From a virus, in the IMG/VR virus record IMGVR_UViG_3300017952_004623, positions 1-20,524 of that record: a DNA stretch of 20,524 nt; one strand, given 5' to 3'. The notes under the pieces were generated by a model, which did not search any database, was not told where the DNA came from, and saw nothing but the letters and a program-made list of their open reading frames with translations. The translations under genes were made by a program, and so were the position numbers. Every line of letters begins with the position of its first letter. The stretch's first letter is position 1. Shown here piece by piece: positions 1,278-19,075 of this stretch.

Positions 1278-1322
1278 TGTACCTTAGTCCTGACACTAAA
1301 TATCATAATTTAAGAATCGATT

Positions 1323-2345: not shown

Positions 2346-2348
2346 AAA

Positions 2349-4031
2349 TTATTCTCCAAAAATTCTTTCTGATTTGACAGTTTCAATGTCATTTTTTAAA
2401 TTTTGAATATTATTTTTTAAATTTGTTGCAGCATCTACAATTTGCTTCGAAGGCGCACCATACCCCGGGGTCGTATGCAATTGCAAAGATTGACAAAATT
2501 TATCCAGGGCGTCCATAGTGTTTTCCCACAGACTTTTTAATTCTCTGTATTTAATATACGGCTGTGCTTCTGTAACGTCTTCAGAAACTTTTATACCGCC
2601 GTTGCCCTTATCATCTTTTTGTCGCCCTAAAAATATTTGCCGGCCGCTAATTTGAATTGTACCATCCGCCTCGATATAAATGCATGCAAGATCTTCGTCT
2701 GGTTTTCCTTCCTTGACAATTCGAATAGTTCCATTTGTTTCAGAAAAATTTTCTGGAAGTTTATTTTTAACAGTTTCTAATGGGGTTTTTCTAGCTACAA
2801 TCCTAACGTGATCGGACTTAACAGCAATACATGGCGCAGAAACTGCACTATTAAATTGATTTTTATTATCAAACCCTTTTGCTTTGATAACATTTAATCC
2901 TAATTTTTCATCAACATTACTTCGTTCACTAATGTATATTCTACTGGCATCAACTAAAAAATCCGGATCACCTTCTACAGGATTTGTTTGCAAATTACCG
3001 ACAATACCTGGCGCCAATTTTGATTCGACGTCAATTTGATCTAAATCTTTAGTTTGTGTTTCACCTGGATTTTTATCAGTTTCAAAACCTAAAGAATTCT
3101 CTACAATGAATGGCTGAGTGCTATTCTTATTAGAATAGGCTTGTTTTAGATCACGATTTTTTGCCTTTAATTCTTGCAATGCTGAAAAAAATCTTCCGCG
3201 ACCAGCAACTATATCGATAGCACCAGACTTATTTTCTATTTCTTTTTGAGTCGCTATAGAATACGTATTTTGTTCACTAGGCCTATTAATAAAGTCCCAT
3301 GCTGCATCTGTTCCTAAGCTTATTGATGTATTATTAGATCCTTGTAAAACTAAATCTCCAGGTTTTTTAGTAAGTCTAGGAACAGGCTCAATTTTAAATT
3401 TTTCCGTAGCAAAAATCATTAAATTTTCTAATGCATTGTTGTTTCTTACTAATAAAGACGAGCCTTCTTTAAGAATATTTTCGTATTTAGAACCGGCTCC
3501 TTTGTTTAAATTAGGAAAATCTAATTGCCTAGCTGCCGGCGGGATTGGGGCAGCCGTAAGAGGTACGTCAATTCTTTTGCTATGGTTTCCAATTAGTCTT
3601 GTTGGAGAAGTAAAATTTGCATCTTCAAGCTCGATTGAACCTGGAATTCTACATATCCAATATGCACGCGTAGAAATTTCTTCATCTAACAAAAATTCTT
3701 TAAAAATCCATACCGCTTCACCGACTTTGACGGGAACAGAAAGATGCGACGAAAAAAATGGAAAACAAATATAATCTCCGCGGTCAGATTCGGAGTTGAA
3801 ATCAGTTATAATTCTGCAAACAATAGAATTTCTAGGAGCAATTTGATATAAATCTTTATCACTTTTTCTAACATTTGATGGAGTAAATTCTCTGAGTGAT
3901 GGATCACATAAGGTTTCAACAACAATGCCTTTATGAAAAATTCGACTCTTTGAAAGCTCATTAACTCTGGATAAAACTGAGTTATTAGGAGCTGCAGCGT
4001 TTTTTCCCTCACGCGCTTCTTTTGTAGTCAT
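2349..4031 (-). CDS. Putative baseplate hub/spike protein, gp5-like OB-fold structural protein
   Basis: The protein has 560 residues. Residues about 65-130 look like the beta-rich OB domain of T4-type hub proteins (SIVCRIITDF, GDYICFPFF, VKVGEAVWIF, AYWICRIPG). Residues about 390-480 hold short beta-strand patterns (SDHVRIVARK, GTIRIVKEG, ACIYIEADGTIQISGRQIFL) of the sort seen in gp5/VgrG-like spike shafts. The C-terminus (about 520-560) is a predicted coiled coil with an Asn/Asp/Lys heptad look. I see no lysozyme domain between these parts, unlike T4 gp5. ATG at 4031 has AAGGA about seven bases upstream. The neighbours gp25 and gp6 support a baseplate role. The exact gp5 assignment is an inference; it may instead be a different virion protein. 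Confidence 0.6.
   Translation of the reverse strand: MTTKEAREGKNAAAPNNSVLSRVNELSKSRIFHKGIVVETLCDPSLREFTPSNVRKSDKDLYQIAPRNSIVCRIITDFNSESDRGDYICFPFFSSHLSVPVKVGEAVWIFKEFLLDEEISTRAYWICRIPGSIELEDANFTSPTRLIGNHSKRIDVPLTAAPIPPAARQLDFPNLNKGAGSKYENILKEGSSLLVRNNNALENLMIFATEKFKIEPVPRLTKKPGDLVLQGSNNTSISLGTDAAWDFINRPSEQNTYSIATQKEIENKSGAIDIVAGRGRFFSALQELKAKNRDLKQAYSNKNSTQPFIVENSLGFETDKNPGETQTKDLDQIDVESKLAPGIVGNLQTNPVEGDPDFLVDASRIYISERSNVDEKLGLNVIKAKGFDNKNQFNSAVSAPCIAVKSDHVRIVARKTPLETVKNKLPENFSETNGTIRIVKEGKPDEDLACIYIEADGTIQISGRQIFLGRQKDDKGNGGIKVSEDVTEAQPYIKYRELKSLWENTMDALDKFCQSLQLHTTPGYGAPSKQIVDAATNLKNNIQNLKNDIETVKSERIFGE
2354..2357 (-). promoter_or_regulatory. Ribosome binding site supporting a GTG start
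   Basis: GGAG reads on the minus strand eight bases before GTG at 2345. It lies in the last codons of the upstream gp5-like gene. It is the main reason for accepting the GTG as start of the 340-residue protein. Confidence 0.7.
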
Positions 4032-4034
4032 AGT

Positions 4035-4412
4035 TTATCCTTCTATCTGCGCAAAAATATCTTCTGAATCGACCGTATTCTGTCGCTCAATTTCCTTGGT
4101 GATCAAACCGGCCAGGCTTAAAAGCTGATCATTGGCCTTAGTCATTCGCTCCAGATATTTGACCAGAGTTGGACCCAGAGTGGCGTGTTCGGGAGCTGTA
4201 GCTCCCAACTGCGAAAAGGCCTGAGTGAAAAGGGCGCTAGCACAGATTCGATCGTTCTTGGCATTGTTATAAATTTCCAGCCACAGAAAAAGTTTGCGCT
4301 GATCCAAGCCATCCACATTTGCCAGAATCTCTTCGAATTCGGTAATCTTTTTCTTGGCCTGCTTGTCCGACTCCATCAGTTTTTCAATTTTTTTTGCGTC
4401 GTTTGCTTTCAT
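4035..4412 (-). CDS. Small conserved-looking phage protein of unknown function
   Basis: This 125-residue protein appears entirely helical. It has a charged N-terminus (KKIEKLMESDKQAKKK), a central LFLWLEIYNNAKNDR stretch, then a segment around 73-105 (HATLGPTLVKYLERMTKAND) and an acidic C-terminus ending DIFAQIEG. I recognise no named domain. It lies seven bases downstream of the late sigma factor and three bases upstream of the gp5-like gene. Composition is near 50% GC, like the sigma gene and unlike the AT-rich structural genes after it. A role with the sigma factor, for example as a gp33-like co-activator, is possible from position alone but has no sequence support beyond a short acidic-hydrophobic tail. 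Confidence 0.8.
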   Translation of the reverse strand: MKANDAKKIEKLMESDKQAKKKITEFEEILANVDGLDQRKLFLWLEIYNNAKNDRICASALFTQAFSQLGATAPEHATLGPTLVKYLERMTKANDQLLSLAGLITKEIERQNTVDSEDIFAQIEG

Positions 4413-4419
4413 AGCCTCT

Positions 4420-5172
4420 TTACACCGCGTTTTCTTTCTCTCGATCTTCTACCGTCAGTTTGGCATAGATCTTTCGAATCTTGCCCATCGATTTTGACAG
4501 GCTCTTTTTGTCTAGACCTGACAGTTCAGCCAGATAAACGTAAATAGACTGTTTGTTAAAGAAGTCAAGCTCCTTGGCTGAATCAAAAAGGTTTTCCACG
4601 GCACTAATCGTCACCAGGTCTCTATCTTCTGTTAGAAAGTCTCGAATCTTTCTCACTCGCGCCAGATTCTCCTCTCGTCTTTCGCCGTTGATCATAAGTT
4701 CTTCGGTAGAAGGCAATTCATTGAATCGACTCAACTGGGCCATAATATTGGCATCGGCAGCATTATCAGCATCTCGAATATCATCTAGATAAACATGCTT
4801 GTAATACTTTTTTCGATGAGAATTGGTGGTATTGATGAGAAAGTTCTTTGCTACCACGTTAAAATAAGAAAAGGCCTTGGAGCCGCGATCTGGATTCCAC
4901 TTGTGAAGGCTCTTAAAGATGAAAAAGCAGCCGTCTTCTATTAATTCAGTAGTGGTAGCAAGAGGCGACCTGAAGCCATAAACATAAATCAGACTCTCCA
5001 CCAGTTTTTTTGTTGCCGGCAAAATTTCGTCGGCATAAACTTTTTCGCGCTCTTTTTCGCACGCTGAAGTCAGAAATTTAGTGATGCTGACCTCAGTCTC
5101 CTTATTGAAATACATGACCCTTTTCTGTCCGGGCCTTCTGCGAATTCTTTTTCTGCCTTTTTTGACTGCCAT
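4420..5172 (-). CDS. gp55: Late-transcription sigma factor, gp55-like
   Basis: The protein has 250 residues. Residues about 76-117 read as sigma-70 region 2: ELIEDGCFFIFKSLHKW, then NPDRGSKAFSYFNVVAKNF, as in the core-binding and -10 recognition helices. The N-terminus is very basic (KKGRKRIRRRPGQKR, 4-18). The later part (about 200-245) is helical and may be a degenerate region 4, ending in ENAV. In T4-type phages gp55 directs host RNA polymerase to late promoters together with the sliding clamp and gp33. This copy is longer than T4 gp55 (185 residues) and lacks an obvious hydrophobic clamp-binding C-terminus. GAGG about seven bases before ATG at 5172 supports the start, directly abutting the upstream stop. 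Confidence 0.85.
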   Translation of the reverse strand: MAVKKGRKRIRRRPGQKRVMYFNKETEVSITKFLTSACEKEREKVYADEILPATKKLVESLIYVYGFRSPLATTTELIEDGCFFIFKSLHKWNPDRGSKAFSYFNVVAKNFLINTTNSHRKKYYKHVYLDDIRDADNAADANIMAQLSRFNELPSTEELMINGERREENLARVRKIRDFLTEDRDLVTISAVENLFDSAKELDFFNKQSIYVYLAELSGLDKKSLSKSMGKIRKIYAKLTVEDREKENAV

Positions 5173-7928: not shown

Positions 7929-8792
7929 CTAAGTGCAGTGTTCCGTGTTGGCAAATTCGCAGAATCGACAGGAGGTCTTGTTTTTGAGGGCCATGCCGCT
8001 ACGCATTCCCTTCAGCATGCCTCGCACCATTTTGGTGGCTTTGGCCAGAGTTTTAGGTCCGGCTGAGACTTCAACCATTGCAACGGATTTGCCCGGCTTG
8101 CTCTCTCGCTTTAACAAAATGAAGCATGCCTTGATTTGATTGCTGGGCATGCCGGTCACTTGCATCCAAAAATGCTTATAGAGAACGATTTGTGCCGTGG
8201 TCAAAAAGTCTCGCTGCTTGTCTCGATTCCAACCTCGAGGGCCGGCCGTTTTCCAGTCAATCACTACGTGCTTGCCATTTGGTAGCTCAATAATGCAATC
8301 AATAAAGCCCTTGAAGAGACCAGTGTCGACTCCCTCAATTGACTCATAGAGACGGTGCTCGGCTGCATGGGGCTTCCAGCCCGGAAAGTTTTCTTCAAGA
8401 AACTGCGGCAGTTGTTCCAGGGAGTTTTTGGCGGATTGTAGCCAGCCTTTTAAAGGCACATGTCTGTACTTCCACTCCTGTTTTTCAGCCCGAAGAGTTT
8501 GCTTTTCTATGAATTCTGGTGTGTCAAAGCCACGATGTTGCCAGGCCTCTCTAATTTTTTGTTGTGCTGCTTCGACGTCCATTGGACCGCCTTTGAGAAA
8601 GCTTTCCACTGCGTCGTGCAGAATTGTGCCGTAGTCCAAATAAGGCGATGGTTCGTCAGCAGAAAGCCCATCGATGTATGCCAGTTTGTGTCGGTAGGGA
8701 CAGGCCTGCCAGGTGCTCACTTCAGAATAAGATACGTGAGGTTTTCCGTTTTTCAGGAGAGGAAGTTGCGAATTGCTTTGAGTGGGTTCCAT
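7929..8792 (-). CDS. PD-(D/E)XK exonuclease, RecB/Cas4-like
   Basis: The protein has 287 residues. The fold markers are all present: SYSEVSTWQACPYRHKLAY (21-39), GTILHDAVE with H59, E145, the GFIDCIIEL strand with D165, the VIDWKTA motif with D179 and K181, and QIVLY (201-205). Cys31 plus C275-x2-C278-x7-C286 form the four-cysteine pattern of the 4Fe-4S cluster in AddB/Cas4-type nucleases. It probably resects DNA ends in phage recombination or replication. Its start overlaps the end of the epimerase gene by 40 bases, the longest overlap here. No upstream in-frame ATG exists and downstream ones would remove the motif start, so ATG at 8792 stands. A 44-base gap follows it. Confidence 0.9.
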   Translation of the reverse strand: MEPTQSNSQLPLLKNGKPHVSYSEVSTWQACPYRHKLAYIDGLSADEPSPYLDYGTILHDAVESFLKGGPMDVEAAQQKIREAWQHRGFDTPEFIEKQTLRAEKQEWKYRHVPLKGWLQSAKNSLEQLPQFLEENFPGWKPHAAEHRLYESIEGVDTGLFKGFIDCIIELPNGKHVVIDWKTAGPRGWNRDKQRDFLTTAQIVLYKHFWMQVTGMPSNQIKACFILLKRESKPGKSVAMVEVSAGPKTLAKATKMVRGMLKGMRSGMALKNKTSCRFCEFANTEHCT

Positions 8793-9685
8793 TGATTCAT
8801 TGTATCTTTTTCGCCGCGATTTTGCAGAAACTCTTGGACGTACTGTTCTAGGTCAACCATGGGCTGCCAGCCAGTTTCGCGTTGCAACAAAGAATAATCA
8901 CAAAGGGTATCTTGTGCTTCGCCTGGGCGCTTTGGAATGTACTGTATTTCGCCGGCGAACATTTGTGCCAGTTCATTGATGGAATAATTTTTGCCAGTGC
9001 CGATATTGAAAATCCACGTGGTGTCATTTTGGCTCCAGTCTTTTTCTCCCAGAGCAACCAGACCTTTTACAATGTCTGAAACGTGTGTGAAGTCTCTTCT
9101 CTGTTCACCGTCTCCTGTAACTGTCAGAGGTTTACCCTCTTCAGTGAAATTTTCAAATATGCCAACGACCGTTGCATAATCGCCAAACGTCGGCTGTCTC
9201 TTTCCGTATACATTAAAAAATCTGGCCACAACTGTGCTCATACCGTAGACTTCATGATATAAAGTGCAGACTTGTTCGCCTGTATATTTTGCAAAAGCAT
9301 AGGGATTTAAGAAGGGACCAGCATAAGCTGAAGATGAGCCGGCATAGACTAATTTTGCTCCGCTTTGTCTGGCGAATTCGCATGTTGCTGCTGTGCCTTG
9401 AATATTAATAGAAAGATAGGCAAGTGGATCTTTGAATGAAGGTTGGATTCTGGCCAGCGCGCCTAGATGATAAACAACATCAAATTTTTGATTTGCATAT
9501 TTTCGATCCATCAAGTTTCTGACATCATCAATCCAATATTCAACGTCATTTCGCATATAATTGCGCGAAGAAGACTCTGAACAGAGATTATCAACGACTA
9601 TTACCTCATACTCTTTTACGTCTCTTAGATAATCAACGAGATGGCTTCCAACAAAACCTAGACCGCCAGTTACTAAAGCTTTCAC
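8753..9685 (-). CDS. NAD-dependent nucleotide-sugar epimerase/dehydratase (extended SDR)
   Basis: The protein has 310 residues. The NAD-binding glycine motif is at 7-13 (GGLGFVG), the active-site serines are around S118-S119 (AGSSSAYAG), and the YxxxK pair is Y129/K133 (NPYAFAK). Later landmarks are ARFFNVYGKRQ (154-164), GDGEQRRDFTHV (191-202) and NIGTGKNYSINEL (227-239). This is the pattern of UDP-glucose/UDP-glucuronate 4-epimerases and relatives. It lacks the usual look of a GDP-fucose synthase. The start is GTG, overlapping the Gmd stop as GTGA, so the two are translationally coupled. The last 22 residues (about 289-310) extend beyond the usual family end and overlap the nuclease start. 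Substrate is unknown; a sugar donor for the neighbouring transferases is likely. Confidence 0.9.
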   Translation of the reverse strand: MKALVTGGLGFVGSHLVDYLRDVKEYEVIVVDNLCSESSSRNYMRNDVEYWIDDVRNLMDRKYANQKFDVVYHLGALARIQPSFKDPLAYLSINIQGTAATCEFARQSGAKLVYAGSSSAYAGPFLNPYAFAKYTGEQVCTLYHEVYGMSTVVARFFNVYGKRQPTFGDYATVVGIFENFTEEGKPLTVTGDGEQRRDFTHVSDIVKGLVALGEKDWSQNDTTWIFNIGTGKNYSINELAQMFAGEIQYIPKRPGEAQDTLCDYSLLQRETGWQPMVDLEQYVQEFLQNRGEKDTMNQWNPLKAIRNFLS

Positions 9686-10653
9686 AGAAACTTACTCTCT
9701 TTTTCTAAATCAGATTCATACATCATTTTAGCTAATTTTTTTAAATCAGTTTTTGGATGCCATTTTAATACTTTTTTTGCTTTTGTTGCATCTCCCAAAA
9801 GCAAAGGAACTTCATGAGGACGCAAGAGTCTTGAATCAAATTCCGCATGATCTTCCACGTTTAATTCTGCTATTTCAAAAACCAAGTGCAAAAACTCTCT
9901 GACACTATAAGTTTTTCCGGTAGCAATTACGTAATCATCTGCTTTTGGTTGTTGCAACATTAGCCACATTGCTTCAACGTAATCTCCTGCAAAGCCCCAA
10001 TCTCTTTTTGCATCCAAATTGCCTAAGTAAAGTTTATCTTGCAATCCTAATTTAATTCTTGCTGCAGCCCTTGTAATTTTTCTGGTCACAAACGTTTCGC
10101 CGCGGCGAGGAGACTCATGATTGAATAAAATTCCACTAGAAACATGCATTCCATATGATTCTCGATAGTTTCTACAAAGGTGATGAGAAAAAACTTTTGC
10201 GCAAGCATAAGGACTAGCCGGCATCAGTCTAGTTTTTTCATTTTGAGGAACTTGAGGATTATCACCAAACATTTCTGATGAAGATGCTTGATAAATTCTG
10301 ATGTCTGGATTTACATGTCGAACGGCTTCAATAATTCTGAGAAATCCTATTCCTACGTTTTGTGCTGTCTCTTCTGGTACTTCAAACGAAACGCGAACAT
10401 GAGACTGTGCGGCTAGATTATAAATTTCATCAGGTTGAAAATCTTTTAGGATTCTGTAAAGAGCACCACCATCGAAGAGAGACCAGTATGCTAATGAAAA
10501 GTTAGGATGTTCCATGACATCATCGACCCTTTCGGTTGCAATAATACTTGTTCTTCTTTTTAATCCTAGAACTTTGTATCCTTTTGATATCAAGAGTTCA
10601 GCAAGATAAGAACCATCCTGCCCTGTCACACCGGTGATAATAGCTCTTTTCAT
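9682..10653 (-). CDS. gmd: GDP-mannose 4,6-dehydratase
   Basis: The protein has 323 residues, close to the family's usual 330-370. Motifs are diagnostic: GVTGQDGSYLAELL (8-21) for NADP binding, SSSEMFG (124-130), YxxxK at Y149/K153 (SPYACAK), and FNHESPRRGETFVTRKI (177-193). It converts GDP-mannose to GDP-4-keto-6-deoxymannose. That product is the common precursor of GDP-fucose, GDP-rhamnose, GDP-perosamine and others. With GT11 and GT10 proteins nearby, the fucose branch is the best guess. ATG at 10653 is preceded by a GAGAGG stretch. The gene is visibly AT-richer than the methyltransferase upstream, suggesting separate origin. Gmd is known from other large marine phages. Confidence 0.97.
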   Translation of the reverse strand: MKRAIITGVTGQDGSYLAELLISKGYKVLGLKRRTSIIATERVDDVMEHPNFSLAYWSLFDGGALYRILKDFQPDEIYNLAAQSHVRVSFEVPEETAQNVGIGFLRIIEAVRHVNPDIRIYQASSSEMFGDNPQVPQNEKTRLMPASPYACAKVFSHHLCRNYRESYGMHVSSGILFNHESPRRGETFVTRKITRAAARIKLGLQDKLYLGNLDAKRDWGFAGDYVEAMWLMLQQPKADDYVIATGKTYSVREFLHLVFEIAELNVEDHAEFDSRLLRPHEVPLLLGDATKAKKVLKWHPKTDLKKLAKMMYESDLEKESKFL

Positions 10654-10683: not shown

Positions 10684-11250
10684 TTATTTAAATGGTTTTA
10701 TGGCTTCCACATTTAGACTCATAAGTGTGCCATTTTCCTTGTCCATGTGCGGAAGGTAGGCCTGACTGTAGTCATCCACATGGGAGTGATCAGTCTCCTG
10801 CCAGTTGTATCTCTTTACAGACACGAATCCGGCGGCTTCCAAGGCGGTTTGCAAGGACATGAAATCGAAACAGACCTTGTGGTAGTCATACTCGTTCCGT
10901 TGTCCACCGTATAGTAACCCCATCAAAACTTTTAGCGGAGTTCCCTTACCATACTGCTCAAACACCTTCTCAATATCAGGCACGGATATTCTGATCAGTC
11001 CGCCAGGAGACAGTTTGCGGAACCATATTTCGATAACTTGCTTAATCTCCGTTCTACCGAAATGTTCCAGAACGTGGCACGCGTATATCTCACTAGCTGA
11101 TCCGTCTTCCACAGTTTCAAGCAACATGACGTCATCGACAACAACATTCGGGGACTGAGGTACGGCATCGATATTGATCCTCCCGTGGATGATCTTGGAA
11201 CCGCATCCCAGATGCAATCTTGTGCCAGGAAGAGTGTTTTCTTTACTCAT
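10684..11250 (-). CDS. Class I SAM-dependent methyltransferase
   Basis: The protein has 188 residues from ATG at 11250. SAM motif I is LHLGCGSKII (12-21), followed by INIDAV. Motif CHVLEHFG (58-65) and LSPGGLIRISVPD (80-92) are classic for small methyltransferases found in polysaccharide loci. A C-terminal HVDDYSQAYLPH stretch may bind substrate. An in-frame GTG at 11262 gives a longer version. ATG at 11250 is preferred because AAGGA lies four bases upstream. It overlaps the stop of the upstream sulfotransferase by eight bases. It probably methylates a sugar or glycan made by this cassette; the acceptor is unknown. GC is near 50%, higher than both neighbours. Confidence 0.88.
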   Translation of the reverse strand: MSKENTLPGTRLHLGCGSKIIHGRINIDAVPQSPNVVVDDVMLLETVEDGSASEIYACHVLEHFGRTEIKQVIEIWFRKLSPGGLIRISVPDIEKVFEQYGKGTPLKVLMGLLYGGQRNEYDYHKVCFDFMSLQTALEAAGFVSVKRYNWQETDHSHVDDYSQAYLPHMDKENGTLMSLNVEAIKPFK

Positions 11251-11995
11251 TGTTTCCTTCACTGATTATAGAACCATAGTAACGCTTCACAATGTCATGT
11301 TCAAGGACATCTTTCAGTGAATTAACAATTTTTTCGTAACTGCCTGGATCCCTTTTTTTCAAAAGCTGTGACCTGGTTAGCCAAACCTTTCCTGTGCTAT
11401 CCACACTCTGTGGGGTTTTAAAAGGCCCATCAAGACTGTCTGATCTCAAATTAAGGTAGTTGGCCAATGTGTAGTCAAGATTTTCTTTATTAACATCAAA
11501 AATGTCGGCAATTAGTGAGATAGGTTTTTTGTAAGCGGTATCTGATATAAGTTCCTCATACTTGATGAGTGCCTTTTTCCCTTCAAAACTTTCGTATAGC
11601 TCTAAGTTTTTCATGAATGTATGGACCCATTTTCTAAAATCACCGGCATCGGTTCCAGTACTGGTTATTCCATGTTTTTGTAGATGCGCATGATCATAAT
11701 CAGTTTGTGGTATTTTATGAGATATCACGGCATCCACTGGGTTTCTCAATATCAATATAATGCTTCTTGCATTCATGACATCTATTTCAACTGCAGCGTG
11801 TGCCTTTCTAGCAATTGGCGTATTCGATACATCGCGTAAGTACATTACACCGCTCCTGTCACGTATCGGTGTATCAATACTTTCATTGCCACGACATCCG
11901 AGTGTTGCCTGTTTTGTCATGAACTCAATCATATACCTAACAAGATGATTACCCGATCTTGGATAGGACAAAATCCAATTATTGACATTACTCAT
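11243..11995 (-). CDS. PAPS-dependent sulfotransferase-like protein (first copy)
   Basis: The protein has 250 residues from ATG at 11995. The 5'-phosphosulfate-binding loop is SYPRSGNHLVR (10-20). A candidate catalytic histidine is H66 in ARKAH (62-66), in the position of the family's K-x-H. The 3'-phosphate-binding segment is ILILRNPVDAVISH (80-93) with R84 and S92. These are the three hallmark sites of cytosolic/Golgi-type sulfotransferases. It would move sulfate from PAPS to a hydroxyl, probably on a sugar. A longer start at 12007 is possible. ATG at 11995 makes an ATGA overlap with the GT11 stop and has GGAG upstream. GC is near 35% on sampled lines, unlike the flanking methyltransferase and GT11 genes. 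Confidence 0.85.
   Translation of the reverse strand: MSNVNNWILSYPRSGNHLVRYMIEFMTKQATLGCRGNESIDTPIRDRSGVMYLRDVSNTPIARKAHAAVEIDVMNARSIILILRNPVDAVISHKIPQTDYDHAHLQKHGITSTGTDAGDFRKWVHTFMKNLELYESFEGKKALIKYEELISDTAYKKPISLIADIFDVNKENLDYTLANYLNLRSDSLDGPFKTPQSVDSTGKVWLTRSQLLKKRDPGSYEKIVNSLKDVLEHDIVKRYYGSIISEGNNE
11255..11259 (-). promoter_or_regulatory. Ribosome binding site choosing the methyltransferase ATG
   Basis: AAGGA reads on the minus strand four bases before ATG at 11250, within the last codons of the sulfotransferase gene. It would lie inside the coding part of a GTG start at 11262, so it favours the shorter protein. Confidence 0.7.
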
Positions 11996-12819
11996 AAAAT
12001 TCTCCATTGTTCGCAGTAGATATCTTGCCAGTCAGAAGGTCCCTTTGGCCCGAACCAATTTTTAGGGGCGATGACAACACCATTGTTTCTGGAAAGCCAG
12101 GCACCCCACCAACTAAAGCTGCTATTGGCGATGATATGATGATTACATCGAGACATCATTGCCATACTCAAACCATAGTCTACATCTGGATATACGATTT
12201 TATCGACTGGTATTACAGAAACTTCTTGCATGACTGATTCGGCAAGAGTTGGTTCATCTGAGAACACAGCGTAAATGTCACATTCCGGTATTTCGGACAC
12301 TGCTAAACTGTAATAGCTGGAGTCTAGGTTTGGGTGAGTCTCAGAAATTTTTTTGTAATCTCCTCTTCGAATGTGGATGGAGCAAACTGTCGAACCTGAA
12401 AATTCTGTCTGCCACATGTCATCGGCTGAATCTACTATATGATTCTTGAACCTAAACTCGTCCTCTAGCAGCTGATATCTCAGGTGTTTGAAGTATTTCT
12501 CAGACTGAAAATATCCCCTTATTTCAGTTCCGTCGGGAACGGTTTCGATTCTGCGATCGTATCCGAAACCTGACTCGTGGAACTCATATCTTATGCCTTC
12601 TATACCCCGTCCGACACCATTTTTGAGGACTCCAAGAGTTGTGGCACTCTTGAGCTCAAACGTCTCCAACAACTGGTTAACACTAGTACTTCGATAAGCG
12701 TCATGAGCAGATATTCCCAAGGACGTTCTGTGCCTTGCTGACAAGGCGTATGCGCAGGCATATTGAAACATTTGGTTTCCTAGACGGCCCATGCTGCCCA
12801 TTCTCGCAACGCTAATCAT
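11992..12819 (-). CDS. Alpha-1,2-fucosyltransferase-like glycosyltransferase, GT11
   Basis: The protein has 275 residues, standard for bacterial GT11. The motifs are clear: GRLGNQMFQYA (11-21), GYFQSEKYF (102-110), SIHIRRGDY (147-155, the GDP-fucose-binding HxRRGD) and ANSSFSWWGAWL (231-242). Family members transfer fucose, usually in alpha-1,2 linkage, from GDP-fucose to a galactose or similar residue. It lies between two sulfotransferases with four-base ATGA overlaps on both sides, so the three are translationally coupled and probably act on one glycan. The nearest source of donor is Gmd further downstream. GC is near 50%, higher than the sulfotransferase that follows. Confidence 0.96.
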   Translation of the reverse strand: MISVARMGSMGRLGNQMFQYACAYALSARHRTSLGISAHDAYRSTSVNQLLETFELKSATTLGVLKNGVGRGIEGIRYEFHESGFGYDRRIETVPDGTEIRGYFQSEKYFKHLRYQLLEDEFRFKNHIVDSADDMWQTEFSGSTVCSIHIRRGDYKKISETHPNLDSSYYSLAVSEIPECDIYAVFSDEPTLAESVMQEVSVIPVDKIVYPDVDYGLSMAMMSRCNHHIIANSSFSWWGAWLSRNNGVVIAPKNWFGPKGPSDWQDIYCEQWRIL

Positions 12820-13517
12820 CGAAGTAGTTCTCTCAATCTTTCGTTTACTTGCTTGCCATAGACTTCTTTGAACCTGTTCTTTGACTCTGCGTGTTTTTTT
12901 GGATTGTAGGCAGACAGCTTATCCATAGCGTGATGATCTGTAATTAGCGAATCAATCTTTTCCTTAGTTGCATCTCCAATTGCATAGATCAATCGTTCCT
13001 CAGGAATATCTAGTGAAAGAAACTCAAAGACTTTTTCAAACGTCTTTTTGGTATCACTAGTCATTTGCTCGTATCTAATTTCCAGACAATCGGCTATGTC
13101 GTCCCTGTTAAACCTCCACCGCTTTAGGTGAGACTCGTATTGTGATGTCACAGCATCAACTTGTTGATCAATGAGTTCGTTTGGCTCCCAATAGTCTTCA
13201 GCCAGTATTGTCTTGTCGTATCTTAGTAGTGAGTATACAGTATCAACGCCATCGCGGAAGAGGTATATCACTTTTTCAAGATTCGCTGTCGGTGGAACAT
13301 CTTTATTGTCGAGCCAGCGATCGTGTATATGAAGACCCCAACACTTTTTGGGATTTGGATAGTAGTAGGATGACACCATGGCCGGTGTTTCGGTAGCCAC
13401 TTCCATGATATACCTAAACCAATGAGATCCTGTACGAGGGAAAGATACTAGTCTTGGCAACGACCTATTGTTGTGGATGTCATACTCTCTCATCTTGTAG
13501 GTTATGTCGTATCTCAT
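12816..13517 (-). CDS. PAPS-dependent sulfotransferase-like protein (second copy)
   Basis: The protein has 233 residues. The 5'-phosphosulfate loop is SFPRTGSHWFR (25-35). GLHIHD (61-66) holds candidate catalytic histidines, and the 3'-phosphate segment is YLFRDGVDTVYSL (85-97) with R88 and S96. The C-terminal NPKKHAESKNRFKE stretch (205-218) resembles the family's closing GxxGxWK region only weakly. It shares only the functional motifs with the other sulfotransferase here, so the two are not a recent duplication. ATG at 13517 overlaps the DegT stop as ATGA with GGGAGA upstream. Its position next to GT11 suggests sulfation of a fucosylated acceptor, which is inference. Confidence 0.84.
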   Translation of the reverse strand: MRYDITYKMREYDIHNNRSLPRLVSFPRTGSHWFRYIMEVATETPAMVSSYYYPNPKKCWGLHIHDRWLDNKDVPPTANLEKVIYLFRDGVDTVYSLLRYDKTILAEDYWEPNELIDQQVDAVTSQYESHLKRWRFNRDDIADCLEIRYEQMTSDTKKTFEKVFEFLSLDIPEERLIYAIGDATKEKIDSLITDHHAMDKLSAYNPKKHAESKNRFKEVYGKQVNERLRELLR

Positions 13518-14179
13518 GATCTGTCTCTCCCAAATAGTTTCATGCTTCTTAGGTCGCGGTACTTATCACTCCCACCACAGTCATCGTTGTAGTCAGGTAA
13601 AGACAAGAACTTTTGGATACCATATGCAGCTTGTTCTGGAGGCATGTACATGTTCCAGCCTATTGTTTCTATGTCATCTTCATCGTATGGTTTCGTTATA
13701 TCACGACCTTCATATCGAGCTTTCTTGAACCACGCTACTGAATCCTTGTCATCCGTTAAAATCATACCACCCTTTCCAATCGAAAGTGTCTTTTTAATGT
13801 GGAATGATAAGCAATGAAAAGTACCTTGCTCGTACATTCCCTTCGTAAATCTAGTTGCACCGTCAATAATAGGATAGGGTTCTAACTTGTAAAAACCGGA
13901 CCAAGTCCTTTCGTCAAAAACAACTTCACAACCAGCATGAATAATCGTTTGTGGCACGGACACGTATGTTCTTGCAGGTATTGAAACAGGACCGATAGCT
14001 TTTAATCGCTTCAGACACAAGAACATTGCATTGGTACAACTGTCAACACTCACTGCATATTTGCTTCCTGCATAATCTGCCACAAGCATTTCGAACGCTG
14101 ATACAACATCCCACGGATCTTCAATCGAGATTCCTATTGATTCCAAGTGATCAACAACAGTATTGATATCTGTGTACAT
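13514..14179 (-). CDS. Short DegT/DnrJ/EryC1/StrS-family PLP protein
   Basis: The protein has 221 residues and keeps the large-domain motifs of sugar aminotransferases: YAVSVDSCTNAMFLCLK (41-57), PARTYVSVPQTIIHAGCEVVF (parts of 68-88), IIDGA (104-108, D106 for PLP), SFHIKKTLSIGKGGMILTDD with the Schiff-base lysine probably K130, and GWNMYMPPEQAAYGI (174-188). The family is normally 360-400 residues, so the C-terminal domain of about 150 residues is missing. The short form looks deliberate: its stop is coupled by ATGA to the next gene and no C-terminal remnant follows. AAGGAG before ATG is ideal. On a Gmd product such an enzyme could make GDP-perosamine, but a truncated protein may instead be a partner subunit or inactive. 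Confidence 0.85.
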   Translation of the reverse strand: MYTDINTVVDHLESIGISIEDPWDVVSAFEMLVADYAGSKYAVSVDSCTNAMFLCLKRLKAIGPVSIPARTYVSVPQTIIHAGCEVVFDERTWSGFYKLEPYPIIDGATRFTKGMYEQGTFHCLSFHIKKTLSIGKGGMILTDDKDSVAWFKKARYEGRDITKPYDEDDIETIGWNMYMPPEQAAYGIQKFLSLPDYNDDCGGSDKYRDLRSMKLFGRDRS

Positions 14180-14854
14180 TCAAATCTCCTTGTAGTATCC
14201 ACCATTTGTAAACTTCACCCCAAGGGTTGCAGAAGAGTTACATGTCTGAGATTCTAGAATTTCTTTCGGTATAACCCTAAAATCGAAGCTGACTCTTGTA
14301 AGTCCGGTCATATTTTTCTTATTTCCATGCATGCACTTATTTCCATTGAATATCGAGTATTGACCTGGGAACATTTCCATCGGCTCAAATTTGCCTATTC
14401 CTGGAATAGGTTCTATCCATGTTGCGGATGTGTCATACATCACTGTGAGAGGAATCTGAACGTTAATCTCTCCATTTGGGTGGCCGTGATCTTCGTCACT
14501 ATCAAAGTGCCATTTGTGGATGGCTTGTGAATTGGGCGTTTGCACCCTAAATGAAGGAAATTTTTGAATCAAAAGTTTAACGTCATCACCCAACTTATTG
14601 ACTATCTCTCCTCTCACAAATGAATCATACGCATCAATCATTTCTTTCCAAGGTTCACCTGGCCCGTTGAGATTGAGCTTCGAATAAAAAGCACGATGAA
14701 ATTCACTATCACTTTCGGACTTCCAAAGTACGTCTCCCTCGTGAACCATGTCTTTACAAAACAAGTGCAGAGTCTCAAGTGAAGAAACTCCAAATAACTG
14801 TGACACCATCTTCCTAAATTCGTATTGGCTTTCATCGAACCTAAAGATTTTCAT
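14180..14854 (-). CDS. Putative 2OG-Fe(II) oxygenase, StrG-like
   Basis: The protein has 224 residues from ATG at 14854. A double-stranded beta-helix iron site is visible: H116-x-D118 in HKWHFDSDEDHGHP, the strand GEINVQIPLT (128-137), and distal H176 in NKCMHGNKKN, with R187 in LTRVSFDFRV to hold 2-oxoglutarate. The arrangement resembles the StrG-type oxygenases found beside sugar-modifying genes, as I recall. Substrate is unknown; hydroxylation of a sugar or lipid in the same glycan is a guess. A TTG start at 14869 is less likely. ATG at 14854 overlaps the upstream stop as ATGA. Its neighbour is a DegT/StrS-family gene, a pairing reminiscent of aminoglycoside clusters. Confidence 0.75.
   Translation of the reverse strand: MKIFRFDESQYEFRKMVSQLFGVSSLETLHLFCKDMVHEGDVLWKSESDSEFHRAFYSKLNLNGPGEPWKEMIDAYDSFVRGEIVNKLGDDVKLLIQKFPSFRVQTPNSQAIHKWHFDSDEDHGHPNGEINVQIPLTVMYDTSATWIEPIPGIGKFEPMEMFPGQYSIFNGNKCMHGNKKNMTGLTRVSFDFRVIPKEILESQTCNSSATLGVKFTNGGYYKEI
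14186..14191 (-). promoter_or_regulatory. Strong ribosome binding site of the DegT-like gene
   Basis: AAGGAG reads on the minus strand six bases before ATG at 14179, inside the last codons of the oxygenase gene. Together with the next ATGA junction it argues that the short DegT-like gene is translated on purpose. Confidence 0.75.
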
Positions 14855-15450
14855 AGTTCGTATTCCCAAATCTTAGGCCTGTTTCTTTTAGACAGCATAT
14901 GTCCCTCCAGAACGGACACACTCAGGTTGCTCAGGTCCATGAATCCCTCAAGTGCTAGCACAGGTATATTAAGAAACCCGAGGCTGTTCATATATTCCTC
15001 AACTGGGAATTTGATTGTATTGAGATTATTTCTTGACAAAACGTATCCACCCTTGACAACGTTTTTTGCCGCCCACATCTGTGCCTTAATTTTAGCAAGT
15101 GGTGTGTGCGGATAGCTGCCCAGATCATTGTGAACAAATGATATGGGAACATCGTCACTTTCATCGAATAAAAGTATATTCTTAACTTTGACAGCTGGAT
15201 GATTTTTTGGGTTAGCTATGTCTATGCCTATGCACCTGTCAATGCCGAAATGGTCAATTAAAACCTGAAATGATACACAATTATTTGAACCGAGAACAAC
15301 AATATGCCCGCAGTCCGGTATGTCGTTTATCTTTTTTACAACGCTCTCATATAGATAATTTGCGTAGTATCTTTCATCGTATCCGTGCACTTCACCGTGA
15401 AGGTAATGTTGGTCAAACCAAAATTCCTTCGTGTATTTCTGCTCTTCCAT
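14851..15450 (-). CDS. Methyltransferase-like Rossmann protein, function uncertain
   Basis: The protein has 199 residues. Residues 50-78 (IVVLGSNNCVSF, then DRCIGIDIAN) have the spacing of a SAM motif I and the acidic end of strand beta-2. The usual GxGxG is degraded to GSNNC. FVHNDLG (105-111) and KNVVKGGYVLSRNN (129-142) match later strands. So this is either a divergent class I methyltransferase or an inactive relative. A conserved-looking N-terminal WFDQHYLHGEVHGYDERYY region (11-29) has no family I can name. It is coupled to GT10 by a TAATG overlap and to the oxygenase by ATGA. It probably belongs to the glycan cassette. Confidence 0.6.
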   Translation of the reverse strand: MEEQKYTKEFWFDQHYLHGEVHGYDERYYANYLYESVVKKINDIPDCGHIVVLGSNNCVSFQVLIDHFGIDRCIGIDIANPKNHPAVKVKNILLFDESDDVPISFVHNDLGSYPHTPLAKIKAQMWAAKNVVKGGYVLSRNNLNTIKFPVEEYMNSLGFLNIPVLALEGFMDLSNLSVSVLEGHMLSKRNRPKIWEYEL

Positions 15451-16307
15451 TACTTCTTAACCCCCTCAATAAATTCAGATATTGCTGCAGCAATGTGGTC
15501 ATCAACGCTGTAATGTCTCAAGACAGACTGGTAGTTTTCTTCCACAGCATTCAATTTTGAGATATACAGATCAGTTGAAATATCTGCAAGGATGTTAGTA
15601 AGCTCCTCAAGTGTATCAAACGTTAGTATTCCATCTGGATTGAAGCCAAAATCCGTATTGATTTTCTTCGTGCCCCAATAGATGGGAATCGTTCTGGTAG
15701 CAAAGCAGTCAAACGCCTTTTCAGTAACGTAGAAATCATCTATACTGTTTTCAATTGTTACTGAAAACATATAAGGATTCAGGGCGTCGGACTTTTTTTT
15801 GATGTAGGTTCCAGTCCCTGATCCGAACATGTCAACATCGAATCCTTTTGCGTTGATTGCTTTTGCGATTTTGTGCCTTAGTTTATGACCAGTTAGTAGC
15901 GTCTTTCTCGAGTATATCATGGAACACAGCTTGTGCTTTTCATGTTTGCTAAACACGGAATCAGAATCTAAGAATATCCCATCACATGGAATTCTGACGC
16001 ACTTGCTTGGGTACTCATTTAAAGCTTTCGAATCGAACGTCAAAACAAGATCAAACGCATCAATTAATCTTGACAATTTTTCATACGCCTTTGGAACATA
16101 TTCTCTAGGTTCCATCAGCCATGCTATCTTGAATCGAGACTCAATACTATTGACAAGGTCCAGACATTCGTCTGTGAAAATTGTTGCCCCATCAAAATTA
16201 GCTTGATTTCTTACGTATCTAATCCTTTTGGAAATTCTTCCTTTTTCAAGAGCATCATCGTAAGAGAGAGCGTGTGCAATATTTTTGTCGATGAAGTTAA
16301 CGATCAT
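15450..16307 (-). CDS. Fucosyltransferase-like glycosyltransferase, GT10
   Basis: The protein has 285 residues from ATG at 16307. The alpha-1,3-fucosyltransferase motif is plain at 181-196 (FSVTIENSIDDFYVTEK region), followed by AFDCFATRTIPIYWGTKKI (198-216) and FNPDGILTF (222-230). E186, N187, E196 and K197 match the family's GDP-fucose-binding residues. The N-terminal half (MIVNFIDKNI onward) is the variable acceptor domain. In-frame starts exist at 16352 and 16319. ATG at 16307 gives the ATGA junction used across the cassette but has only a weak ribosome site, so 16319 is a fair alternative. GC is low, near 38%. It probably adds fucose or another GDP-linked deoxysugar to the cassette's glycan. 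Confidence 0.87.
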   Translation of the reverse strand: MIVNFIDKNIAHALSYDDALEKGRISKRIRYVRNQANFDGATIFTDECLDLVNSIESRFKIAWLMEPREYVPKAYEKLSRLIDAFDLVLTFDSKALNEYPSKCVRIPCDGIFLDSDSVFSKHEKHKLCSMIYSRKTLLTGHKLRHKIAKAINAKGFDVDMFGSGTGTYIKKKSDALNPYMFSVTIENSIDDFYVTEKAFDCFATRTIPIYWGTKKINTDFGFNPDGILTFDTLEELTNILADISTDLYISKLNAVEENYQSVLRHYSVDDHIAAAISEFIEGVKK

Positions 16308-16939
16308 CTCTTGATCCATTTCTCCCAAATGAAAGGATACTTGAACATGCATGTGTGCGTATTCAATAAATTATTGCAAATCTCGTTATATTTGTTTATT
16401 GAATCGTCATCAATAGGGTGGAATTGCACAAAGATTGACTTGACGTTTTTTATCGCATTAGAAGTAAACAGAGAATCAAAAGCCTCGTATTCAGACCCCT
16501 CAATATTCATTTTGAGCAGATCAACACTTCGTGTGCCAATTACCTTAGCAGCATCAATAACAGAAATAACAGATGTATGATCGGACTGATTCTGAATATT
16601 ATCTCGGTCTATTCTTGTTGCTAGACCGTCGACAGATAGATGTGCTTGATAATCTCCCATTCCGACTGCGTTGTTTTTAATCGTGATTTTTCCATCGGGC
16701 AAATTTTTAAATCTATCTTCGATTTGTTTGACAAATTGCTGTGTTGGTTCGTAAATTTCAATGTCGCAATTGTATCGGGCAAATATCTTGTGTGCCCACT
16801 CGCCCGTGTATCCACCCAAATCAATTACCAGGCTGTTTTCATCTAATTCATGTTCAAGTGAAAGTGTCATATCTCCTTTGTCAGCAACCCAATGGAGCAC
16901 AGATCTGTCTCTGATTTCTTCACCTATTCTTTTACTCAT
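16304..16939 (-). CDS. FkbM-family SAM-dependent methyltransferase
   Basis: The protein has 211 residues from ATG at 16939. SAM motif I is LVIDLGGYTGEW (37-48), motif II IEIYEPTQQF (60-69), and the FkbM signature is VDLLKMNIEGSEYEAF (139-154). FkbM proteins usually O-methylate sugars or polyketides, and many lie in polysaccharide loci. The last segment (SIFVQFHPID, 172-181) is also typical. A GTG at 16951 would overlap the previous stop by eight bases. Neither start has a strong ribosome site, and the ATG is chosen as default. The end overlaps the GT10 start as ATGA. The acceptor is unknown. Confidence 0.9.
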   Translation of the reverse strand: MSKRIGEEIRDRSVLHWVADKGDMTLSLEHELDENSLVIDLGGYTGEWAHKIFARYNCDIEIYEPTQQFVKQIEDRFKNLPDGKITIKNNAVGMGDYQAHLSVDGLATRIDRDNIQNQSDHTSVISVIDAAKVIGTRSVDLLKMNIEGSEYEAFDSLFTSNAIKNVKSIFVQFHPIDDDSINKYNEICNNLLNTHTCMFKYPFIWEKWIKR

Positions 16940-16943
16940 TTGC

Positions 16944-17693
16944 TTACTCACATGCTAGGTAGTTATATTTTTTCCCTTGCCTAACCCGCATTTCAACCCG
17001 GTGTTGATCTCCCTGTCTAATCTGGTCATCTGAGATGGGGTTGAATCGGTTATAACAGTACAGGACGTTTGGTATGAAGATCGTTCTTTCCCCAGACATC
17101 TCCAACATGGGCATCATAAATGCCACATCCCATCCGACTCCGTAATAAGATTCGTCTTCGTCTCGAAGGTCCGCGTCTCTGATCGAGTTCCACAGTTTGG
17201 ACTTGAAAGTTCGAAGGTGACTGGAAACGAACTTATACTGTCTGAAGCTTCGATTTTTTAATACTTCAGCCGGAAATGGTTCACAATTGCTTCTGCCACC
17301 AGTGGGATGGTGAATATGATTTCCGTATGTCAGGAAACACCCAGTTTGATCGTAGGCCTGTTTTACGATCTCAAGGGATAACTCCGAAAAAAGAAAGTCA
17401 TCACCATCTATAACCATCAGAACAGATTCTGGATCCTTTTCTGATTCAAGTTCTTTGAATCCATAGACGATATTCGCTAATGCCTTTACATTCTTTTCGT
17501 TGTGGACAATACGAAATCGCGGGTCTGGTCTTTCGGAAAAGAAATGATCGATGACTGCTCCGGTATTATCCGTGCTAGCATCATTATACACAATACATTC
17601 AAAGTTGCCATATGTCTGCGATTGTATTGAATGAAGGCACCTGACTATCCAGTGCTCAGTATTATATGTCGGCACTACAATCTTAAATTTCAT
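16944..17693 (-). CDS. Glycosyltransferase, GT2 family
   Basis: The protein has 249 residues and one GT-A domain. It starts KFKIVVPTYNTEHWI, has CIVYNDASTDNT (33-44) for nucleotide binding and VLMVIDGDDF (91-100) with the DxD-type metal site. A later GVGWDVAFMMPMLE stretch (around 186-199) may hold the ED/Q-like catalytic region, with the usual GT2 acidic residues in DEDES just before. There are no membrane segments, so it is cytosolic. ATG at 17693 has a perfect AAGGAGG four bases upstream and overlaps the preceding GT2 stop as ATGA. It shares little beyond motifs with the preceding GT2. It is likely one of the chain-building enzymes of the cassette. Confidence 0.93.
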   Translation of the reverse strand: MKFKIVVPTYNTEHWIVRCLHSIQSQTYGNFECIVYNDASTDNTGAVIDHFFSERPDPRFRIVHNEKNVKALANIVYGFKELESEKDPESVLMVIDGDDFLFSELSLEIVKQAYDQTGCFLTYGNHIHHPTGGRSNCEPFPAEVLKNRSFRQYKFVSSHLRTFKSKLWNSIRDADLRDEDESYYGVGWDVAFMMPMLEMSGERTIFIPNVLYCYNRFNPISDDQIRQGDQHRVEMRVRQGKKYNYLACE

Positions 17694-18412
17694 ACTTCCT
17701 CCTTGTTCGTACTCGTATTCCTTCGATAAAGATAAGGAGTCTCAGCTAATATTGACGTGGCCTGCAATCCTAGAGTTACTCTACAGTTAAAATCCGAATC
17801 TTCGCTATGTAATATGCGAAGTCCCATTTCAGGCGGATTGAATCGATATCCAATATCCCATATGCGCTTGAAAAACATAGAACTGACACCGGCTGTTTCA
17901 AAGTTGCCAGTGTAGTAATGATTACAACCGGGAGATTGAAAGCCATGAGATACCAATCTAACGACATCTTCCCTGGTCATGCACCTAATGTTATCTGGTT
18001 TTAAAAGCTTTCTACCTTGCGATATGTCGTCTTCATTCCAACAATGAACAAATCCACATAAATTGTGAACAGTTTCAGTCGCTTGCATTGCGCTTAGTTG
18101 GGATGAGATTCTCCATGAAAGAGACACATCATCGGCATCATGCGCAGTACATATTGTGGCGTCAGATGTCGAAAAGGCGTAATTTAACCCGTTCCATTTT
18201 CCAATATTATTCTCAAATCTGTGGTATCTGATTCTACTGTCACTAATATCATTTACTATCTCTCGCGAGAGATGAGAATCAGAACCATCATCTATCACTG
18301 CAATATCTAAGTTTTCATAATCTTGATTTACTATGCTCAGTATCGATTCTTTTAAATAATTTTCGTGATTATAATTGCATATGGCAACGCAGACTTGATG
18401 ATTATTTTTCAT
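17690..18412 (-). CDS. Glycosyltransferase, GT2 family
   Basis: The protein has 240 residues with a GT-A fold start: VCVAICNYNHENYLKESILS (7-26), AVIDDGSDSH (38-47) and CTAHDADDVSLSW (88-100), where HDADD carries the metal-binding aspartates. RILHSEDSDF late in the protein (about residues 204-213) fits the catalytic ED region. It has no membrane segment. The start at 18412 overlaps the DUF2061 gene by 11 bases and lacks a clear ribosome site, so it may be read by coupling. It likely works with the GT2 that follows on the same glycan; sugar and linkage are unknown. Confidence 0.92.
   Translation of the reverse strand: MKNNHQVCVAICNYNHENYLKESILSIVNQDYENLDIAVIDDGSDSHLSREIVNDISDSRIRYHRFENNIGKWNGLNYAFSTSDATICTAHDADDVSLSWRISSQLSAMQATETVHNLCGFVHCWNEDDISQGRKLLKPDNIRCMTREDVVRLVSHGFQSPGCNHYYTGNFETAGVSSMFFKRIWDIGYRFNPPEMGLRILHSEDSDFNCRVTLGLQATSILAETPYLYRRNTSTNKEEV
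17698..17704 (-). promoter_or_regulatory. Consensus ribosome binding site before a GT2 gene
   Basis: AAGGAGG reads on the minus strand four bases before ATG at 17693, encoded within the last codons of the upstream GT2. It is the closest match to the Shine-Dalgarno consensus I found in the window. Confidence 0.85.
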
Positions 18413-18629
18413 TTACTGTTTTATTTTCCATTCGAATATATTTGAACCAGAATCTTTCGTGCATATAATAGAGCAGCATTTTGCTGAACATTTCTATGAT
18501 TCCAATACTGGCTCCGGTCTTAATATCTCCGGTAATAATCCATGCCAAAAGTATTGTATCAGTTGTGCCTAAAATTCTCCAAGAAATTGTTTTGAGAATA
18601 TGTCTTTTTTTATCTACATCAATTTTCAT
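18402..18629 (-). CDS. DUF2061 small membrane protein
   Basis: The 75-residue protein matches the DUF2061 pattern from end to end: RHILKTISWRILGTTDT (9-25), two hydrophobic segments at about 19-33 and 40-56, and IEMFSKMLLYYMHERFW (45-61). The function of the family is not known. From memory, bacterial members often lie beside sulfate-activation genes such as cysN or cysC. Here the gene directly follows a cysC-like gene with an ATGA overlap, which preserves that link. A role in sulfate or sulfated-product handling at the membrane is inference. Both genes are AT-rich compared with the glycosyltransferases on either side, as if they arrived together. Confidence 0.88.
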   Translation of the reverse strand: MKIDVDKKRHILKTISWRILGTTDTILLAWIITGDIKTGASIGIIEMFSKMLLYYMHERFWFKYIRMENKTVNEK

Positions 18630-19075
18630 ATTTGCAAAATAATTTTAAGCTCTTCAAAACTTTCTTGTACGGATTTTTCAGTTGTGTCTATTTGACAGAA
18701 GTTTTCGTCATTAGGCGGTTCAAAATCATCACTGTGAAAATGTTCTCTACCTCTAATGTCCGACGTCACAACATAAATTTCTTTTGCTCCTGTCTTATTT
18801 TTGAAATTATCTCTTAAATTTCTATATGGAGCTACTAGAGATACTATAACATTGTATCCATTATTATGAAGATAATGAGCTATAGTTTGAGCTTTTAGAA
18901 TATTTTTTTCTCTGCCTTGTTTGCTATAATCTTTATTATCTGTAAGGCTTCTTAAGTCATCTCCATCAATTCTAAAATTGAGTACAGAAGGATTCTGTTC
19001 TTGCAGATAATCTTTTAAAGCATTAGCTAAGACTGTTTTGCCTGCGCCAGGCTGGCCAATAAACCAATAAATCAT
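18626..19075 (-). CDS. cysC: Adenylylsulfate (APS) kinase-like protein
   Basis: The 149-residue protein has a P-loop GQPGAGKT (7-14), the APS-kinase motif IDGDDLR (36-42), DYSKQGREKNI (49-59) matching the family's substrate-binding Arg/Asn stretch, and SLVAPYRNLRD in place of ISPY-x-x-xR. The fold matches CysC, which phosphorylates APS to PAPS, the universal sulfate donor. The usual DxKGLY lid is replaced by IRGREHFHSDDFEPP, as in divergent stand-alone relatives. It is shorter than E. coli CysC (about 200 residues). It is followed by a DUF2061 gene with ATGA overlap, and two sulfotransferases lie downstream, so PAPS supply is a strong inference. The start is two bases after the upstream stop with a weak ribosome site. 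Confidence 0.88.
   Translation of the reverse strand: MIYWFIGQPGAGKTVLANALKDYLQEQNPSVLNFRIDGDDLRSLTDNKDYSKQGREKNILKAQTIAHYLHNNGYNVIVSLVAPYRNLRDNFKNKTGAKEIYVVTSDIRGREHFHSDDFEPPNDENFCQIDTTEKSVQESFEELKIILQI

Follow-up and report, generated by a model that had tools for sequence, protein, structure and literature searches.

A candidate sulfation module with an APS-kinase-like gene and sulfotransferase genes in a T4-like phage fragment

What use would a phage have for a kinase resembling adenosine 5′-phosphosulfate (APS) kinase encoded in the same gene run as two sulfotransferases? This question is raised by the viral contig IMGVR_UViG_3300017952_004623 from IMG/VR, which was analyzed over its whole length of 20,524 bases (hereafter the window). 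Because of its baseplate-wedge and late-sigma matches at positions 1-5172, this contig is a fragment of a T4-like phage. A preliminary description of its sequence had proposed that the kinase makes 3′-phosphoadenosine 5′-phosphosulfate (PAPS) and that the sulfotransferases use it, the three forming a dedicated system for the sulfation of a glycan. Our analysis suggests that the window probably carries a phage sulfation module inside a glycan-building operon, and this reading gains most of its weight from the viral and bacterial relatives of the kinase.

The kinase and the sulfotransferases

The kinase and both sulfotransferase open reading frames (ORFs) are present, all on the minus strand, and the single co-directional run in which they had been placed was found as described: from 20523 to 10684, the genes overlap or abut, with gaps of -49 to +2 bases. 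The protein encoded at 18626-19075 does carry the announced P-loop (GQPGAGKT) and DGD motif, as well as REKNI and an SPYR-like APYR motif. It matches the Pfam APS_kinase model (PF01583) with 64.6 bits for a cut-off of 21.1, over model positions 4-108 of 152 only, i.e., the first two thirds. Structure prediction, suggested as a check in the preliminary description, gave a confident AlphaFold2 model of this kinase, with a mean predicted local distance difference test (pLDDT) score of 95.4. The 35 top PDB fold matches of this model consist exclusively of APS kinases and PAPS/ATP-sulfurylase-APS-kinase fusions, gluconate kinase coming after these, and the best one according to Foldseek is 5cb6 (E = 6.7e-9, TM = 0.84). 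The modeled protein thus most likely works like an APS kinase, yet is not a standard CysC, and its substrate is presumably APS.

Sulfotransferase 2 is clearly recognizable as such from its sequence, which scores 45.4 bits with Sulfotransfer_1 (cut-off 22) and 39.5 bits with Sulfotransfer_3 (cut-off 27), contains the PAPS motifs FPRTG and RDGVDTVYS and matches sulfotransferases from PDB with E = 3e-7. Sulfotransferase 1 is a probable sulfotransferase: it possesses a 5′-phosphosulfate-binding motif (YPRSG at 15) and a 3′-phosphate-binding motif (RNPVDAVIS at 88) in which R and S have the usual spacing, KAH is also present, and the best PDB match of the protein is Teg14 (E = 0.007). Its ORF is open from 12007, but the start at 11995 was preferred because it yields a 4-base overlap that matches the neighbouring joints.

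Relatives of the kinase in phages and bacteria

A profile search revealed at least 499 viral relatives of the kinase, the best 80 of which were kept; since sulfotransferases played no part in the profile, this set was not selected for them. The kinases form two groups: group 1 includes the window kinase, those of most phages and those of three bacteria, whereas group 2 is a distant phage group. A Sulfotransfer_3 protein (PF13469) above the cut-off is encoded in 17 of the 39 group-1 records versus 0 of the 11 group-2 records (Fisher p = 0.005), and a control sample of 80 loci fetched through the tail-sheath gene, in which a locus was counted if its upstream sequence reached at least 5.4 kb, showed a sulfotransferase in 5/5 loci with the kinase versus 0/17 loci without it (p = 3.8e-5), both p-values being guides only because related phages are not independent and two of these five kinase loci are records already seen. 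All 17 group-1 sulfotransferase genes are located 0.2-1.2 kb upstream of the kinase gene, and the gap does not exceed 20 bases in 11 kinase clusters. Co-occurrence of the two gene types in phages, a second check proposed in the preliminary description, is therefore observed, and with these comparisons of sequences the case for sulfation is much stronger than it would be from the window alone. By contrast, PAPS_reduct (CysH/CysD) was not found above its cut-off in any of the 50 phage records carrying this kinase type (39 of group 1 and 11 of group 2).

Two other loci encode proteins with sulfotransferase-like P-loop starts near the kinase (SSGRCGSSSLF in L071:2410-3057 and LSLPRCASTAF in L031:14004-14795) that remain under all Pfam sulfotransferase models. 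A first set of 14 relatives obtained with closer patterns, without any sulfotransferase above the cut-off, had suggested mere coincidence; this set was biased, being mostly composed of the distant kinase group, and the profile search reversed the picture.

Phylogenetic analysis separates a phage-rich clade from canonical CysC (support 100/100) and has the window kinase diverge first within the viral kinases (support 99/96); canonical CysC and group 2 each form one clade, while the placement of L003 is unsure. Among the group-1 representatives, residues N47, G54, R55, N58, P83 and R88 are invariant, which fits the canonical N..F/S..R..NI..SPYR block. Several of these residues are changed in group-2 kinases, which are devoid of accompanying sulfotransferases. 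This distant group (L004-L015, e.g., L013:11393-11869) comes from large phages, and several of its loci carry a CoaD-like nucleotidyltransferase gene within about 1.5 kb and no sulfotransferase gene; these kinases may act on another substrate, such as a coenzyme A (CoA) precursor. Genomes of isolated phages gave distant kinase matches only, and when the 560-aa protein of the window phage was used to look for close relatives of this phage, no useful ones emerged.

In the three bacterial genomes, which are draft assemblies, the short kinase is the sole APS_kinase match. In a Flavobacteriales genome (L016, 6132-6932), the protein carries a fused HAD phosphatase domain, and the genes of DUF2061, CysD and CysN come next. 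Separate HAD genes are found at the place matching this fusion in four phages (L003, L038, L054 and L066). In a Verrucomicrobia genome (L017), a TPR-sulfotransferase is encoded near the short kinase, and another genome from the search of the same phylum (L028) harbors a Sulfotransfer_2 gene and a sulfatase gene close to it.

The phage relatives also encode a small HxGH nucleotidyltransferase (GRWQPxHxGH ... ISATKIRE, about 125 aa; e.g., L042:10422-10823). It follows the kinase in all the 82 group-1 viral loci with room for it, precedes DUF2061 in most loci and forms one protein with the kinase in L048 and L057; in the tail-sheath sample, this protein and DUF2061 are also encoded in all five kinase loci. 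By sequence and fold (a moderate model, pLDDT 79), it resembles nicotinamide mononucleotide (NMN) and phosphopantetheine adenylyltransferases, and the idea that it is an ATP sulfurylase was dropped as unsupported. Distant kinase-nucleotidyltransferase genes are also present in the cultured Stenotrophomonas phages DLP6 and Bhz60 (L112 and L113), the Bhz60 pair adjoining a gene whose annotation includes a NADAR domain. These two phages are possible laboratory systems for the kinase-nucleotidyltransferase pair.

The gene run and the proposed sulfation of a glycan

Three features come in addition to what had been described previously: the short lid of the kinase, the DUF2061 gene, and the genes of the fucosyltransferase family, which overlap or adjoin those of the sulfotransferases. 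The stop codon of the kinase gene and the start codon of the DUF2061 gene share 4 bases (ATGA), as read in the sequence. Of 96 loci, the window counted, 68 encode a DUF2061 protein close to the kinase. The family also occurs in 16 of 149 Bacteroidia genomes, where the gene adjoins CysD, CysH, CysC, CysN or CysQ in seven of the 16 cases, including L016. A viral scan using the window DUF2061 as single-protein query retrieved no relatives.

The run successively encodes a family 2 glycosyltransferase, the APS-kinase-like protein, DUF2061, two family 2 glycosyltransferases, an FkbM methyltransferase and a glycosyltransferase of family 10 (GT10), then two unclassified proteins, a short DegT aminotransferase, sulfotransferase 2, a glycosyltransferase of family 11 (GT11), sulfotransferase 1 and a methyltransferase (Table 1). 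A GDP-mannose 4,6-dehydratase gene lies 30 bases past the end of the run and is followed by the gene of an epimerase of the short-chain dehydrogenase/reductase (SDR) type, for which no NCBIfam model exceeds its cut-off. At only 221 aa, the DegT-type protein gives a profile match divided into two segments, as though some of its central region had been lost. One of the unclassified proteins (14180-14869) has an HxD...H pattern and resembles 2-oxoglutarate-Fe(II) oxygenases, with no Pfam match.

Table 1. Features of the window discussed in the text
Feature	Position	Strand	Evidence
Family 2 glycosyltransferase, cut by contig end	19078-20523	-	Pfam PF00535, 42.2 bits; 2 bases before kinase
Short-lid APS-kinase-like protein, 149 aa (proposed PAPS-making kinase)	18626-19075	-	Pfam APS_kinase, fold, tree
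DUF2061 small membrane protein	18402-18629	-	Pfam PF09834, 78.6 bits (cut-off 23.1)
Two family 2 glycosyltransferases	17690-18412 and 16944-17693 (span 16944-18412)	-	Pfam PF00535, 73.1 and 85.4 bits
FkbM-type methyltransferase	16304-16951	-	Pfam PF05050, 28 bits
GT10 (fucosyltransferase family)	15450-16352	-	Pfam PF00852, 42.6 bits
Short DegT-type sugar aminotransferase	13514-14179	-	Pfam PF01041, 75.9 bits
Sulfotransferase 2, 233 aa	12816-13517	-	Sulfotransfer_1 above cut-off; both PAPS motifs
GT11 (fucosyltransferase family)	11992-12819	-	Pfam PF01531, 74.3 bits; between sulfotransferases, overlaps both
Probable sulfotransferase 1	11243-11995	-	Both PAPS motifs; Pfam under cut-offs
S-adenosylmethionine methyltransferase-like protein	10684-11262	-	Weak Pfam match; PHROG 6636 methyltransferase, E = 2.8e-9
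GDP-mannose 4,6-dehydratase	9682-10653	-	NCBIfam TIGR01472, 441.5 bits (cut-off 415)
Sugar-nucleotide epimerase/reductase (SDR)	8753-9685	-	Pfam Epimerase; product not assigned

In the proposed mechanism, the short-lid kinase would convert APS and ATP into PAPS, from which sulfotransferase 2, and probably also sulfotransferase 1, would transfer sulfate to hydroxyls of the glycan built by the neighbouring glycosyltransferases. DUF2061, a small membrane protein, would be associated with sulfate activation. The neighbouring genes point to a glycan as the acceptor, which most likely would contain a 6-deoxyhexose such as fucose, obtained via the GDP-mannose dehydratase; a fucosylated glycan is favoured because both sulfotransferase genes flank and overlap the GT11 gene. 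The sulfated product would presumably be displayed either by the virion or by the surface of the host cell.

Two deductions from the preliminary description are not supported. The first one, that APS must come from the host since no ATP sulfurylase is visible, relies on a fragment of 20.5 kb, in which an absence is no evidence. The second one, an argument against hosts lacking assimilatory sulfate reduction, disregards that sulfate activation and this reduction are separable steps and that only the former (by Sat or CysDN) is needed.

Alternative readings and meaning of the kinase subfamily

Several points weigh against a sulfation module. Because the kinase falls below the cut-off of the apsK equivalog TIGR00455 (68.6 vs. 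138.7 bits), it was filed as APS-kinase-like and not as a standard CysC; its earlier designation as CysC-like holds for the APS kinase fold and the pocket residues, but not for the lid. The latter (KGLYKKAR..FTGI over APS) is absent, this region being about 18 residues shorter than in canonical sequences, and profile alignments with solved APS kinases break there and resume at a PYEPP-like segment. In known APS kinases, the lid contacts APS. Although both PAPS segments are found in the two sulfotransferases, as previously stated, only sulfotransferase 2 exceeds the Pfam cut-offs; sulfotransferase 1 stays under them (Sulfotransfer_3, 20.5 vs. 27 bits; Sulfotransfer_1, 16.5 vs. 22 bits). Furthermore, their genes are not adjacent to the kinase gene but 5 kb away, and they belong to other subfamilies, not closely related to the kinase-adjacent sulfotransferases of phages. 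Single-sequence pattern searches of IMG/VR detected no close relative of either. A relative of sulfotransferase 1 is encoded by a 484 kb uncultured phage (LR756508.1; L133:1989-4392) near a fucose-synthase-like SDR fragment, and a further scan (A6) gave one weak relative, without glycan neighbours. Lastly, the nucleotidyltransferase of all the testable group-1 relatives is missing in the window, where kinase and DUF2061 are directly coupled. On the whole, the proposal of a single system combining PAPS supply and sulfotransferases is supported by the fold, the conserved residues, the bacterial context and the kinase-sulfotransferase association in phages, whereas its glycan acceptor is deduced from the neighbours.

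The missing lid would also fit a kinase that phosphorylates another adenylylated compound and, together with the nucleotidyltransferase, may make or modify a NAD- or CoA-like nucleotide. The constant presence of this nucleotidyltransferase in group-1 loci, its fusions to the kinase, its closeness to NMN and phosphopantetheine adenylyltransferases and the NADAR-domain gene flanking one of the distantly related Stenotrophomonas phage pairs point in the same direction. However, the APS-pocket residues are invariant in the sulfotransferase-linked group, CysD and CysN accompany the kinase in a bacterium, DUF2061 is tied to sulfate genes, sulfotransferase genes adjoin the kinase gene in phages and the window carries no such nucleotidyltransferase, which makes this other substrate unlikely.

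Alternatively, the kinase gene could be of the auxiliary metabolic type and boost cysteine supply through assimilatory sulfate reduction, with the sulfotransferases unrelated to it. CysH, too, uses PAPS as substrate. Viral cysC genes are known from many phages and have been assigned to this pathway in published surveys (PMC10914622, PMC9529941); like the window kinase, they are phage-encoded, APS-kinase-like and, in the Challenger Deep tree, apart from prokaryotic CysC. However, the genes linked to the kinase in the present work are those of sulfotransferases, no CysH was found in the phage records (nor in the window, which is a fragment), and the neighbours of the bacterial relatives include, besides CysDN, genes for sulfotransferases and a sulfatase. 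Therefore, we regard a role in sulfate reduction as rather improbable.

A more ambitious version of the sulfation reading would give aquatic phages a near-complete pathway in the order sulfotransferase-kinase-nucleotidyltransferase-DUF2061, with the nucleotidyltransferase standing in for ATP sulfurylase and DUF2061 handling sulfate at the membrane; the window phage, whose kinase has no adjacent nucleotidyltransferase, would then represent a deep branch that uses this pathway for a phage-built sulfated fucosyl glycan. This version is quite doubtful, since the sequence and fold of the nucleotidyltransferase match adenylyltransferases of the NMN and phosphopantetheine types and not ATP sulfurylase. 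Finally, the distance in the window and the different subfamilies of the window sulfotransferases could suggest that one phage acquired the sulfotransferases independently of the kinase-DUF2061 pair, without any joint action. Such a coincidence is very improbable, since kinase and sulfotransferase co-segregate in the relatives, the window genes form a single run in which neighbours overlap or abut and both window sulfotransferases need the presumed product of the kinase.

The candidate sulfation module shares with known APS kinases (CysC; PF01583/TIGR00455) the fold, P-loop, DGD, R-x-x-N-I and SPYR-like motifs of its kinase and, in one bacterial relative, the CysDN neighbours, but its kinase differs in the shorter lid, the TIGR00455 score below the cut-off and the membership of a clade separate from canonical CysC. 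In rhizobial Nod-factor sulfation, PAPS supply (NodPQ) and a sulfotransferase (NodH) are likewise encoded together for a specific glycan product; unlike the window, in which no ATP sulfurylase is seen over 20.5 kb and the glycan is unassigned, NodPQ also makes APS. Sulfotransferases of aquatic phages have been published with unclear function, for example in OM43 phages (PMC10580990). Such Sulfotransfer_3 proteins (another example being PHROG 27463, unknown function) belong, like those of the window, to the PAPS-type sulfotransferase family, but they were reported without any link to a PAPS kinase, and the two in the window either resemble Sulfotransfer_1 or are unclassified. Our literature search, which left out most subscription journals, found no publication joining viral cysC with phage sulfotransferases.

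The strongest new point, which we favour from sequence comparisons, is that a large subfamily of phage genes called cysC appears linked to sulfation and not to sulfate reduction. Many surveys take viral cysC as a sign of viral control over sulfur assimilation; if this subfamily serves sulfation, that conclusion changes for it. PHROG 27463 and DUF2061 would then gain a testable context. Sulfated glycans on phages or on the surface of their hosts would be a new phage route to altering adsorption, superinfection or recognition.

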